From: an endosymbiont of Escarpia spicata
GTDB lineage: Bacteria; Pseudomonadota; Gammaproteobacteria; Chromatiales; Chromatiaceae
Reading direction: 5' to 3'
Length of the DNA stretch: 64,000 nt
NCBI GenBank assembly: GCA_003349915.1
Contig: QFXE01000002.1
Coordinates: forward strand, 88,183 to 152,182
The translations under genes were made by a program, and so were the position numbers. Positions 41,889 to 55,712 of the stretch are shown in pieces (position 1 is the first letter of the stretch; every line of letters begins with the position of its first letter). The notes beneath the pieces are model-generated. The model saw nothing but the letters and a program-made list of their open reading frames with translations. It was not told where the DNA came from and ran no database searches.

Positions 41889-44252
41889 CTACTTAGACTC
41901 CGCCAGCATTTTCCAAGTGTCTATCACGGTATCCGGGTTCAGTGAGATACTGCTGATATCCTGCTCCATCAGCCAGTGGGCCAGATCCGGATAGTCGGAT
42001 GGTCCCTGACCGCAGATGCCGATATATTTGCCCTGCTTATGGCAAGCGGAGATTGCCATGCTGAGCATCTTCTTCACCGCCGGGTTACGTTCGTCAAAAC
42101 TGTGGGCCACCAGTCCTGAATCCCTGTCCAATCCCAATGTCAGCTGGGTGAGGTCGTTGGAGCCGATGGAAAAACCGTCAAAATAGGCCAGAAAATCCTC
42201 TGCCAGTATGGCGTTAGAAGGCAGTTCGCACATCATGATGACACGCAGGCCATGCTCTCCCCGTTTGAGTCCATTAGCCTCCAGCAAACGGATCACCTCA
42301 GCCGCCTCTTCCAGCGTGCGGACGAAGGGGATCATGATCTCGACGTTGTCGAAACCCATCTCTTCACGCACCCGCTTGAGCGCTTTGCACTCCAGTTCGA
42401 AGCAGGAGCGGAACTTTTTCGAGATATAACGGGAAGCGCCGCGAAAACCGAGCATCGGGTTCTCCTCTTTCGGTTCGTAGCGTTCACCGCCAATCAGATT
42501 GGCATATTCATTGGACTTGAAGTCGGACATGCGCACGATGACAGGCTTCCCGGTAAAACCGGCGGCGAGGGTGGCGATGCCCTCCACCAGTTTTTCCACA
42601 TAGAACTCCACCGGACCGGGATAACCGGCAATCTGTTTTTCAATTCGTTCCCGCAGCGCATCCGGCAGCTGCTCATACTCCATCAGTGCATGGGGGTGGA
42701 CACCGATGGTGGTGTTGATGATGAACTCGACTCTGGCAAGCCCGATGCCGGCGTTGGGGATGCGGCTAAAACCGAAAGCACGCCCTGGATTGCCCACATT
42801 CATCATAATCTTGGTGGAGAGGGGGGGCAGGGTGACCTTATCCCCCTGGGTCACGGTGTACCTCAGCAGGCCTTCATAGATCAACCCGTCATCCCCTTCA
42901 GCACAGGAGACGGTCACTGCCTCGCCATCTTTCAGTTTGGCGGTGGCATTTCCACAACCGACTACCGCAGGGATACCCAGTTCCCGGGCGATGATGGCGG
43001 CGTGACAGGTACGTCCACCACGATTGGTGACGATGGCCGAAGCCCGTTTCATGACCGGTTCCCAGTCGGGATCTGTCATGTCTGTTACCAGTACATCGCC
43101 CTCTTCGACACGGGCCATCTCCGAGACATCCGCAATGATTTTGACGGAGCCGGAGCCGACACGCTGTCCTATGGCGCGACCCTGTACCCGCACCACCCCC
43201 CGTTCTTCCAAGTTAAAACGCTCCACCTTGGCATGGTCGACACGGCTCTCAACCGTCTCGGGTCTTGCTTGAAGGATATAAAGCTGGCCATCTTCACCGT
43301 CCAGTCCCCACTCGATATCCATCGGACGGCCATAGTGTTCTTCAATGGTCAGCGCCTGGCGTGCCAGTGCCTCGACCTGTTCATCGGTGAGTGAAAACCG
43401 GCGTTGCGCTTCGGTGTCCACATTCACCGTGACCACGTTTTCCTGCTCCCCTTTGCCGTAGATCATCTTCAGGGCCTTGCTGCCGAGGGTGCGGCGCAAA
43501 ATGGCGGGCCGTTGAGCTTTCAGATTGGCTTTATGAAGATAGAACTCATCCGGATTGACTGCGCCCTGCACCACGGTTTCGCCCAGGCCATAGGCGCTGG
43601 TAATGAAGACCACATCGTCGAAACCGGATTCGGTATCCAGGGTAAACATTACACCGGCGGAGCCGGTGTCCGAGCGCACCATGCGCTGAATGCCGGCGGA
43701 AAGGGCGATCTCATCATGATCGAAACCCTGATGTACCCGGTAGGCGATGGCACGGTCGTTATAGAGGGAAGCGAAGACACGCCTGATGGCCAGGAGTACC
43801 TCATCTATGCCGGTAACATTGAGATAGGTCTCCTGCTGTCCCGCAAAGGATGCATCCGGCAGATCCTCTGCGGTGGCGGATGAGCGTACTGCTACTGCAG
43901 GGTCTCCATCGTTGTTGTGCGCCAGCTTCTGATAACCGGCGGTAACGGCGTTTTCGAGCACTGTCGGCAAGGGAGCATCCATGATTGCCTGGCGGATGGA
44001 TTGACCTGTCTTCGCCAGTGCCTCTACGTCATTGATGTCGAGGTGTGACAGTAGAGACTCAATGCGCTCTTCCAGCCGATTGTGACGGATGAACTCACGA
44101 AAGGCGTGGGCCGTGGTGGCAAAACCGCCGGGTACGCTGACGCCCATCTCCGAAAGTGTGCTGATCATCTCTCCCAGTGAAGCATTTTTTCCGCCTACTT
44201 GGTTGACCTGCTGCATGTTGAGATTTTCGAACCAGATGATTTGCTCGCTCAC
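41889..44252 (-). CDS. ppsA: Phosphoenolpyruvate synthase
   Basis: A 787-residue enzyme converting pyruvate, ATP and water to PEP, AMP and phosphate. The N-terminal ATP-grasp-like domain has Gly-Gly-Lys-Asn-Ala-Ser-Leu-Gly-Glu. The swivelling domain has the phospho-His in Gly-Gly-Arg-Thr-Cys-His-Ala-Ala-Ile. The C-terminal PEP barrel has Gly-Ser-Asn-Asp-Leu-Thr-Gln and the Cys of Gly-Ile-Cys-Gly-Gln. The GTG at 44252 is preferred (GGAG eight bases upstream, homologous Ser-Glu start); an ATG at 44294 adds 14 residues. It follows the rnf genes on the same strand, so it may draw on pyruvate made by the PFOR of this cluster. Confidence 0.95.
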   Translation of the reverse strand: MSEQIIWFENLNMQQVNQVGGKNASLGEMISTLSEMGVSVPGGFATTAHAFREFIRHNRLEERIESLLSHLDINDVEALAKTGQSIRQAIMDAPLPTVLENAVTAGYQKLAHNNDGDPAVAVRSSATAEDLPDASFAGQQETYLNVTGIDEVLLAIRRVFASLYNDRAIAYRVHQGFDHDEIALSAGIQRMVRSDTGSAGVMFTLDTESGFDDVVFITSAYGLGETVVQGAVNPDEFYLHKANLKAQRPAILRRTLGSKALKMIYGKGEQENVVTVNVDTEAQRRFSLTDEQVEALARQALTIEEHYGRPMDIEWGLDGEDGQLYILQARPETVESRVDHAKVERFNLEERGVVRVQGRAIGQRVGSGSVKIIADVSEMARVEEGDVLVTDMTDPDWEPVMKRASAIVTNRGGRTCHAAIIARELGIPAVVGCGNATAKLKDGEAVTVSCAEGDDGLIYEGLLRYTVTQGDKVTLPPLSTKIMMNVGNPGRAFGFSRIPNAGIGLARVEFIINTTIGVHPHALMEYEQLPDALRERIEKQIAGYPGPVEFYVEKLVEGIATLAAGFTGKPVIVRMSDFKSNEYANLIGGERYEPKEENPMLGFRGASRYISKKFRSCFELECKALKRVREEMGFDNVEIMIPFVRTLEEAAEVIRLLEANGLKRGEHGLRVIMMCELPSNAILAEDFLAYFDGFSIGSNDLTQLTLGLDRDSGLVAHSFDERNPAVKKMLSMAISACHKQGKYIGICGQGPSDYPDLAHWLMEQDISSISLNPDTVIDTWKMLAESK

Positions 44253-44306
44253 CGTTTGCTCTCCGTTATCGGCTTGATGGGATGATTCACACATGGTTGC
44301 CCCCTT

Positions 44307-44504
44307 CTATCGATGGCCCTTTTTTTCTTGTTGGCAGCTGCCACCGCTGCAAAGACAGCTCTTTCCGCAGCCGGCCCCCTCTTCACGTGCCGGTCCCAAC
44401 TCGGGGTGCGCCTTCGAAAAACGCCGGCTGACGGACTGCACCAGCAACCAACAGAGTAGCAGTGTGGGAATCAACACTATTGCAATAAGTACGTCTCGCA
44501 ACAT
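44307..44504 (-). CDS. Small Cys-rich membrane protein at the end of the rnf operon
   Basis: A 65-residue protein with one N-terminal membrane helix (about 4-24), a basic segment and a C-terminal Cys cluster (Cys-Gly-Lys-Ser-Cys-Leu-Cys-Ser-Gly-Gly-Ser-Cys). It starts 2 bases after the rnfA stop and precedes ppsA. The layout resembles NqrM, a small Cys-containing membrane protein needed for maturation of the related Na+-NQR complex, but I do not see clear sequence identity. A role in iron or flavin insertion into Rnf is a hypothesis only. Confidence 0.65.
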   Translation of the reverse strand: MLRDVLIAIVLIPTLLLCWLLVQSVSRRFSKAHPELGPAREEGAGCGKSCLCSGGSCQQEKKGHR

Positions 44505-44506
44505 GA

Positions 44507-54637: not shown

Positions 54638-54672
54638 AATCTCTATCTCGTTTCAGTCAGCCTGGGTGTTAG

Positions 54673-54800
54673 TAACGCGGAGGCCGCAATGCCGCAAAGA
54701 ACGCGGAGTTATATTTTTTCCTGATGCCTCTTTGAACAGTTCAGGTGTTGGTGTCTTGAGTAATTTTCCTCTAAAGAAACTTTACGCTTTTCGCGTTGCT
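54673..54800. repeat. CGCAAAG-type interspersed repeat, copy 3
   Basis: AACGCGGAGGCC and CCGCAAAGAACGCGGAG at the left, TTTACGCTTTTCGCGTTGC at the right, in the 175-base spacer between rnfB and nifJ. A divergent relative of the copies at 41793-41866 and 47658-47750. Confidence 0.5.
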
Positions 54801-54812
54801 ACAATCTCAGAA

Positions 54813-55712
54813 TTAGGTTGCAGGGTGCTGGGGCAACGCCTCCTTACGCACAATATGCTTGGCCTGGCGTCCCTTGATCACGATGTCGCCGTCCAGCCAG
54901 ACTATGGCGCCGGTGGGGCAGCGTTGGGTGGCTACGGGGGAGGCCAGGGCATTTTTTTCGTAGTCGATCACTGCCAGGTTGTCGCGGATGGTGATCAGCG
55001 TTTCCGGACTGTCTTTGGCACAACGTTCGCAGGCAGTGCAGGCCACGGCGCAATCGGCTTCAGCCCCGTCACCATCGCCCAGATTTTTACACGCCACCCA
55101 TAATCTGTGGCTGATTGGCTGGATGGAGAAGAGTTCTTTAGGGCAGACATCGACACAGTCCCCACAGGCCGTGCACTTGGCATTAGTGACCACCGGGAGG
55201 CCATGTTGATCCATGGTGATGGCCTCGAGTTCGCAGACCTCTGCACAATCGCCGATCCCAATACATCCCCAACTGCAACCTTTCGGACCACCGGCCACAA
55301 GGGCTGCTGCCCTGCATGAGGAGAGGCCTTCGTAGTGGGCCCGCATGTGCGCGACATGGGTGCCTCCTGCACAGGCGAGACGAGCCACCCGTTGCTCCAC
55401 TTCACCCGCCGCTACGCCAAGGTAATCCGCGATCTCTTCAATGGCATCCTGCGAATTCACTGTACACTGGGCCGGTTCCAGACTGCCTTCGACCAATCCT
55501 TCGGCAAAAGGGCGACAACCTGCGGTACCACAGGCGCCGCAGTTGGTCAGAGGGAGCATCTCTTCGACCTCATCGATGCGTGGATCCTCGAATACCCACA
55601 GCTTACGGTTTGCAATGGCCAGGGTAAGAGATAAAACAAGCCCCAAAACGCTCATAAAGGCGATTGCGATAGAGATATGAATAAGGTTGTCGTAGTCCAA
55701 ATTCCCAATCAC
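54813..55712 (-). CDS. rnfB: Electron transport complex subunit RnfB (long form)
   Basis: A 299-residue subunit, longer than the 190-residue enterobacterial form. It has an N-terminal membrane helix (about 10-32), a four-Cys cluster motif (Asn-Cys-Gly-Ala-Cys-Gly-Thr-Ala-Gly-Cys), then several further Cys motifs (Cys-Ile-Gly-Ile-Gly-Asp-Cys, Cys-Thr-Ala-Cys-Gly-Asp-Cys, Cys-Thr-Ala-Cys-Glu-Arg-Cys) and a final Arg-Cys-Pro-Thr-Gly-Ala. RnfB is the ferredoxin-interacting subunit. It is the first gene of the minus-strand block and is separated from rnfC by the nifJ and tpx genes. Confidence 0.94.
   Translation of the reverse strand: MIGNLDYDNLIHISIAIAFMSVLGLVLSLTLAIANRKLWVFEDPRIDEVEEMLPLTNCGACGTAGCRPFAEGLVEGSLEPAQCTVNSQDAIEEIADYLGVAAGEVEQRVARLACAGGTHVAHMRAHYEGLSSCRAAALVAGGPKGCSWGCIGIGDCAEVCELEAITMDQHGLPVVTNAKCTACGDCVDVCPKELFSIQPISHRLWVACKNLGDGDGAEADCAVACTACERCAKDSPETLITIRDNLAVIDYEKNALASPVATQRCPTGAIVWLDGDIVIKGRQAKHIVRKEALPQHPAT

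Follow-up and report, generated by a model that had tools for sequence, protein, structure and literature searches.

An rnf operon of the Escarpia spicata endosymbiont and its relatives encodes a giant pyruvate:ferredoxin oxidoreductase predicted to carry a tethered ferredoxin

The endosymbiont of Escarpia spicata (Gammaproteobacteria, Chromatiales, Chromatiaceae; assembly GCA_003349915.1; 4.06 Mb in 23 contigs, completeness 100%) carries an rnf operon in which the gene of an unusually large pyruvate:ferredoxin oxidoreductase (PFOR) lies between rnfB and rnfC. The operon is located in a stretch of 64,000 nucleotides (nt) of contig QFXE01000002.1 (contig C10, positions 88,183 to 152,182), referred to here as the window. 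This enzyme, hereafter the giant PFOR, probably passes its electrons privately to RnfB, and the pair would constitute a reversible pyruvate/NADH ion pump. Three observations argue for such direct wiring: the fixed place of the PFOR gene beside rnfB and rnfC, the ferredoxin predicted to be built into the enzyme, and the survival, in a second Rnf operon, of a PFOR scaffold that keeps only its dicluster.

The gene order was compared across relatives of the giant PFOR found by a scan of named genome contigs, using the best 80 of at least 555 confirmed relatives and dropping loci for short flanks (10 of the 80 before PFOR, 19 after it and 27 for ppsA). rnfB was found ahead of the giant PFOR in all 70 loci that could be judged and rnfC downstream of it in all 61, so the order is not a matter of chance; in two loci (L033 and L062) rnfB reads in two frames and was counted as present. 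The small cysteine-rich gene found after rnfA in the window has a homolog in every one of the 60 loci whose sequence extends 400 nt or more beyond rnfA, as detected with a hidden Markov model (HMM) built from the window copy and 13 of these loci. Other members of the row are more restricted: in 8 of 61 loci, three of them labelled as Lamellibrachia symbionts and five as Sedimenticola, tpx is interposed between PFOR and rnfC (a partial tpx also occurs in L046, a Sedimenticola locus excluded from the counts), and ppsA follows rnfA in 14 of 53. The conserved core is thus rnfB-giant PFOR-rnfCDGEA-small gene, while tpx and ppsA are lineage additions. A preliminary description of this DNA had treated the row from rnfB to ppsA as one supercluster with a complete but split rnf set and a small cysteine-rich protein. 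None of these genes is missing or disrupted, and all run on the minus strand, in the transcription order rnfB-PFOR-tpx-rnfC-D-G-E-A-small gene-ppsA, and the six Rnf subunits (A, B, C, D, E and G) were all detected, with PFOR and tpx between rnfB and rnfC; the synteny survey that the description had called for bears out the core of the supercluster and leaves tpx and ppsA outside the conserved module.

The labels among the 80 loci include Chromatiales, Thiodiazotropha, Sedimenticola, Venteria, Thiotrichaceae, Rhodocyclaceae, Thiobacillus, SAR324 and Shewanella atlantica, and the rnfB-PFOR order is recorded under gamma- and betaproteobacterial and SAR324 labels. Thiocapsa roseopersicina DSM 217 and Marichromatium gracile DSM 203 are two cultivated strains with the locus. 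In the Bacteroidota member Persicobacter psychrovividus the 1.07 Mb plasmid pPP1 (L148) carries PFOR-rnfCDGEA, with rnfB about 1.6 kb further on. Shewanella atlantica and Persicobacter are presumably heterotrophs. The window protein shares 97% identity with its counterpart in a gammaproteobacterial endosymbiont of the tubeworm Lamellibrachia anaximandri, and 89% with the counterparts in another L. anaximandri symbiont and in an L. barhami symbiont.

The giant PFOR comprises, in one chain, domains I-III, a split dicluster ferredoxin domain, a thiamine pyrophosphate (TPP) domain and a C-terminal extension; its POR_N, PFOR_II, POR-gamma, Fe-S dicluster and TPP domains place it in the PFOR/2-oxoacid:ferredoxin oxidoreductase superfamily. 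The active-site residues (PITP 40-43, E75, R125, GDG 1229-1231 and N1263) and the cluster residues (C1009, C1012, C1138 and C1342 of the proximal cluster, eight dicluster cysteines and four C-terminal cysteines) are intact. The residues of the TPP site and of the proximal cluster (GDG, Asn, Glu and the four Cys) are invariant in all 32 aligned sequences, namely the query and 31 of the 120 hits listed, and match canonical NifJ. Compared with the canonical PFOR/NifJ enzymes of D. africanus (1B0P) and M. thermoacetica (6CIN), the window protein is about 450 residues longer, with inserts in the dicluster domain (about 805-915) and in the TPP domain (about 1036-1128) and a C-terminal extension ending in a predicted ferredoxin domain. 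Against the NifJ equivalog model TIGR02176 it scores 395 bits, below the cut-off of 911; it is best filed as a divergent giant PFOR and not as a NifJ equivalog, with a predicted specificity for pyruvate.

For the structure model of residues 769-1644, VIA-align listed no known fold beyond model residue 738, and this part was then modelled alone. In the model comparison the C-terminal domain, which is predicted to be a tethered ferredoxin, gave a match to D. africanus ferredoxin I; a low-confidence linker (residues about 1534-1560) runs ahead of it. The RnfB next door is of the long form: its top score in the profile search was to PRK07118-type RnfB, and its 20 cysteines leave room for up to five 4Fe-4S clusters. 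The window operon differs from the canonical gammaproteobacterial rnfABCDGE/rsx operon, which has the order A-B-C-D-G-E and a short RnfB.

Published work touches on this arrangement at several points; the papers cited here by PMC accession are represented by excerpts, to which the statements on their content refer. In the gill symbiont of Solemya velum the PFOR genes lie between rnfB2 and rnfC2, and pyruvate may donate electrons to Rnf (Dmytrenko et al., 2014, PMC4287430). The gene arrangement is the same as in the window, and the locus is among the 80 compared here (L062, where rnfB and PFOR each read in two frames). That account concerns one genome and gives an oxidative reading; its excerpts mention neither the enlargement of PFOR, the tethered ferredoxin, the wide conservation nor the second operon described below. 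The window set shares all six subunits, the flavin-attachment motifs (SGAT in RnfD and RnfG) and the Fe-S motifs (in RnfB and RnfC) with the Rnf complexes of C. tetanomorphum, A. woodii and A. vinelandii (reviewed in PMC12174285); it differs from them in its order, B-[PFOR]-CDGEA, with the PFOR gene inside, and in grouping with the operon described next. In Allochromatium vinosum the role of three Rnf clusters was called "entirely unclear" in the genome paper of 2011 (PMC3368242). A search of literature listings, mostly without subscription journals, found no description of the tethered ferredoxin, of the conserved small gene or of the second operon.

The genome holds three rnf sets: rnfABCDGE on contig C9, that of the window, and one on contig C17, where a locus considered as Nqr (C17:51521) was rejected as such and is the third rnf set. 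Between KorB and sucC/sucD-type genes, contig C17 has a giant-PFOR C-terminal half and a second rnfB, as well as a relative of the giant PFOR that is of full length and has lost its active site (pseudo-PFOR). Thirty such loci were collected from the order: one from the symbiont itself, five from other genomes of its genus and 24 from elsewhere in the order. N1263 is replaced by Leu and E75 is lost in all 30; in the proximal cluster C1009 has become Glu and C1342 Ser or Asn in all 30, and C1138 is kept in none; all eight dicluster cysteines are retained in 30 of 30. rnfB adjoins the pseudo-PFOR gene within 1.5 kb in 29 of the 30 loci and was found in a larger region for the thirtieth. Pseudo-PFOR therefore occupies the slot between rnfB and rnfC that the live enzyme has in the window. 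Sixteen larger regions contain rnfB (16), KorAB (11), the C-terminal half (13) and a downstream rnfC on the same strand (13). The C-terminal half keeps the CxxCxxC...C ferredoxin motif in 13 of 13 copies, and GGDG and NTGGQ are absent from its 12 full-length copies, the thirteenth being a fragment. To judge from its neighbors and from names used in the literature, the KorAB of this operon probably acts on 2-oxoglutarate. In the C17 stretch 19000-47500 (loci L014 and L096) a fumarate-reductase-like flavoprotein and a NuoF-like gene are also encoded, beside KorAB, the PFOR C-terminal half, rnfB, the dead PFOR and sucCD-type genes.

The relation between the two operons was addressed with a tree of concatenated RnfC, RnfD, RnfE and RnfA (29 sets, 1143 columns), comprising 14 window-type sets, Persicobacter, nine of the pseudo-PFOR type and five PFOR-less sets. 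The PFOR-linked Rnf sets were split from the five PFOR-less ones with a support of 100/100; if the root lies among the latter, the window and pseudo-PFOR operons would descend from one PFOR-containing ancestor. A third kind of giant PFOR (type 3) has its active-site residues intact in 5 of 5 sequences and the C-terminal cysteines in four, the fifth row being gapped. No rnf gene was found in the 7-18 kb fetched around these loci; an NfnAB-like fusion flavoprotein directly follows the type-3 gene in 4 of 4 loci with flank (domains checked in three; PRK12779 at 1698 bits in the one scanned). A dedicated NAD(P)H partner thus tends to accompany giant PFORs, type 3 preceding its own NfnAB-like flavoprotein. 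The idea that the C-terminal ferredoxin marks only Rnf-linked PFORs is ruled out by the type-3 enzymes. In one metagenome-assembled genome labelled Hyphomicrobiales, the PFOR-rnf operon is followed by two more weak giant-PFOR-like open reading frames (ORFs) and by a weak NfnAB-like match (L032:10603-14501).

In the mechanism proposed for the window, pyruvate would be oxidised at TPP and its electrons would run through the proximal cluster and the dicluster to the tethered ferredoxin, which would dock on RnfB and deliver them to the RnfB clusters; from there they would pass through RnfA-E-G-D to RnfC and NAD+, with export of Na+ or H+. Under a large, respiratory ion gradient the chain could run in reverse and acetyl-CoA be carboxylated to pyruvate. 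Conditions would set the direction: pyruvate oxidation during glycogen breakdown at low oxygen, pyruvate synthesis where PpsA drains the product. Tpx is likely an added protection in tubeworm symbionts and Sedimenticola. A broader view, put forward only tentatively, is that giant PFORs are wiring scaffolds, each equipped with a tethered ferredoxin and paired with a private NAD(P)H partner. The window enzyme would be a live pyruvate enzyme docked on RnfB; after the operon was duplicated, the copy would have become a dead Fe-S wire leading from KorAB to a second Rnf, and this second ion pump, linked to 2-oxoglutarate, would go with the reductive tricarboxylic acid (rTCA) cycle. If these views are correct, 2-oxoacid oxidation or synthesis would be coupled to an ion pump with no diffusible ferredoxin in between, which suggests how sulfur bacteria that meet oxygen use PFOR, with the electrons kept on a private wire; a pseudoenzyme that survives in a respiratory-type complex solely as a wire would be novel, and its operon is a built-in control for the wiring idea.

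A number of observations weigh against direct wiring and the broader view. The weakest points are that the interaction of PFOR with Rnf and the activity are predicted, and that the type-3 enzymes bear the same C-terminal ferredoxin domain in loci without Rnf neighbors. Structure models of the PFOR carry no information on contacts with RnfB; the AlphaFold2 model of residues 769-1644 is middling (predicted local distance difference test score, pLDDT, 73.6; predicted template modelling score, pTM, 0.68), and a Foldseek search with the C-terminal model gave no match reaching an E-value of 0.001. The pseudo-PFOR is not degraded throughout, R125 being kept in 17 of 30 loci, D1230 in 7 and C1012 in 2; KorAB was not seen in 5 of the 16 larger regions (two end with their contig and one has 4.8 kb upstream), and in three of the 16 the C-terminal half is also missing. 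The outgroup of the Rnf tree is small, the five PFOR-less sets, and its root is not fixed. Finally, a canonical NifJ encoded on C9 could share a soluble ferredoxin pool with any Rnf.

Such a pool is what would link the two enzymes if the arrangement reflects co-expression only, as in fermenting anaerobes; Rnf would then conserve the energy of pyruvate oxidation. The reading of the S. velum arrangement by Dmytrenko et al. (2014, PMC4287430), in which pyruvate donates to Rnf, agrees with this, as do the presence of the module in Shewanella atlantica and Persicobacter and the proposal that NifJ works in concert with Rnf in rumen butyrivibrios (PMC4478896). It leaves unexplained, however, why the second operon retains, next to rnfB, a PFOR scaffold devoid of an active site and why the live enzyme has a ferredoxin built in, and is considered rather unlikely. 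Supply of low-potential electrons to nitrogenase, suggested by a paper on purple sulfur bacteria that treats rnf as an electron source of this enzyme (PMC10609205) and by the occurrence of NifH over cut-off in 92 of the 210 genomes of the order, is extremely improbable: no NifH over cut-off was found in the symbiont's own genome, which refutes the role there as far as that genome is complete, and across the order window-type PFOR and NifH are independent (both 52, PFOR only 61, NifH only 40, neither 57; p = 0.58). NifH is rarer with pseudo-PFOR (10/31/82/87 in the same order, p = 0.005).

The preliminary description had favored a reductive module, in which gradient-driven Rnf reduces ferredoxin, PFOR carboxylates acetyl-CoA and PpsA makes phosphoenolpyruvate. 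Tubeworm symbionts are reported to have both the Calvin-Benson-Bassham and the rTCA cycle (PMC11636981, PMC6315080), rTCA clusters are reported to include Rnf among their electron-transfer genes (Rubin-Blum et al., 2019, PMC6315080), and PFOR as a heterotrophic carboxylase, hence reductive use, was argued for the related sulfur symbiont Kentron (PMC6593406). The rTCA clusters with Rnf, Hdr-Flx and KorABCD described for tubeworm symbionts and Thioflavicoccus (PMC6315080, PMC11636981) belong to the same kind of organism as the window; the excerpts of these accounts describe neither a PFOR gene inside rnf nor a catalytically dead PFOR. The genes that the description had named as a check are partly in place: an ATP-citrate lyase (ACL) domain occurs on the contig of the window (C10:7284), near a three-subunit oxoacid oxidoreductase (gamma domain found by search, the other subunits and HdrA-type neighbors by eye), and KorA and KorB are encoded on C17, KorA over its cut-off and KorB, at 228 bits, under the cut-off of 262. 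In the window, ppsA starts 12 nt after the small gene. For the Riftia symbiont, a study of 2024 reports higher expression of PFOR(3), along with ppdk and malQ, when oxygen is limiting, and a joint decrease of a PFOR-like gene and korAB(3) when sulfide is limiting; it lists Rnf and the isoforms of PFOR and 2-oxoglutarate:ferredoxin oxidoreductase among genes of unknown function or direction (PMC11636981), which tells against a reductive assignment. The PFOR-like gene and korAB(3) may correspond to the C17 operon.

Co-occurrence speaks against tying the window module to the rTCA cycle. Among the 210 genomes, window-type PFOR was present in at least 113 (at least 62% identity among the matches listed) and pseudo-PFOR in 41 (at least 38% identity). 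Window-type PFOR shows no association with ACL (both 21, PFOR only 92, ACL only 18, neither 79; odds ratio 1.0, p = 1.0), in contrast to pseudo-PFOR (26/15/13/156; odds ratio 20.8, p = 1.5e-13). Because the genomes are not independent, the test was repeated by genus, with the same outcome (12/23/6/20, p = 0.40, for window-type PFOR; 12/4/6/39, p = 1.2e-5, for pseudo-PFOR), and drawing one random genome per genus gave median p values of 0.55 and 2.5e-5. Since it is pseudo-PFOR and not window-type PFOR that tracks ACL, the C17 operon would be the stronger candidate for an Rnf operon serving the rTCA cycle, should there be one, and it is the Rnf operon most worth study for reductive carbon fixation in these symbionts. 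In 39 of 53 loci, moreover, ppsA was not seen behind rnfA; its presence there in the other 14 is compatible with a gluconeogenic direction for that subset alone. The presumed heterotrophs Shewanella atlantica and Persicobacter also have the module, which is a further point against a carboxylation module. The reductive module is accordingly regarded as quite improbable: the PFOR-Rnf functional unit of the preliminary description is well supported by synteny, a strictly reductive role is not supported, and carboxylation by the window operon is possible but not favored.

The small cysteine-rich protein, with its conserved place after rnfA, is a candidate accessory or maturation factor of Rnf. It resembles NqrM, the maturation factor of Na+-NQR, in being small, with a single transmembrane (TM) helix and a cysteine-rich tail, and in its position, nqrM likewise standing after the structural nqr genes in V. 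cholerae. It differs in sequence: no Pfam family scored above its cut-off, PF04400 (NqrM) gave no hit at an E-value of 0.01, and the cysteine spacing is unlike that of both NqrM sequences compared; hhalign against only these two, a usable sequence having been obtained by pattern from 2 of 7 NqrM loci, returned a probability of 22%. Kinship with NqrM thus has no sequence support. NqrM itself gave no hit in the symbiont's own genome at an E-value of 0.001. A short single-TM, cysteine-rich ORF also lies right after rnfA of the C17 rnf set (L015:7731-7946; best E-value 3e-4); with this weak score, the C17 protein is not counted in the family of the window gene.

Table 1. Genes of the window operon in order of transcription, and loci of type-3 PFOR (profile scores in bits).
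Feature	Position	Strand	Remarks
rnfB	54813-55712	-	Long form, 299 aa, first gene; TIGR01944 83 (cut-off 69)
Giant PFOR	49703-54637	-	1644 aa; Pfam POR_N, PFOR_II, POR, TPP_enzyme_C, Fer4_13
Predicted tethered ferredoxin-like domain	49766-49951	-	PFOR C-terminus, residues about 1563-1624
tpx	49136-49633	-	Thiol peroxidase; NF001808 217 (cut-off 123)
rnfC	47760-49100	-	446 aa, two 4Fe-4S motifs (CxxCxxCxxxC); TIGR01945 507
rnfD	46605-47648	-	Flavin-attachment motif SGAT at 184; TIGR01946 283
rnfG	45883-46608	-	Flavin-attachment motif SGAT at 193; FMN_bind; TIGR01947 95, just under cut-off 102
rnfE	45088-45732	-	TIGR01948 235
rnfA	44507-45091	-	TIGR01943 235
Small cysteine-rich gene	44307-44504	-	65 aa, single TM, four-Cys tail
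ppsA	41889-44294	-	PEP (phosphoenolpyruvate) synthase; TIGR01418 1185 (cut-off 740)
Type-3 PFOR with NfnAB-like gene	L153:2827-10679; L154:5963-14022; L155:3827-11898; L156:6944-15141

From rnfB to ppsA the intergenic gaps measure 175, 69, 35, 111, -4, 150, -4, 2 and 12 nt. It is from this spacing alone that co-transcription is proposed, because the predicted promoters and terminators across the operon are no more numerous than in shuffled sequences. An FNR-like site with at most two mismatches occurs upstream of rnfB in 17 of 70 loci (24%) against 15% of mononucleotide shuffles, a mild excess that was not used; the best such site of the window rnfB has three mismatches. A tandem repeat of about 7 bases (GGTTAAA-like, minus strand) extends from the end of rnfG into the 150-nt gap before rnfE (45870-45925).

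The glycogen genes had been described as adjacent, which is inaccurate: the cluster (21826-32110: glgA-type at 21826, pgi, glgB at 25271, glgC-type at 27581, a GH57 enzyme, and malQ-type ending at 32110) is separated from ppsA by about 10-20 kb that include MtaB, a chemotaxis-receptor-like gene and RmuC. Upstream of rnfB, two adjoining TPR-methyltransferase proteins are encoded at 56486-59381.

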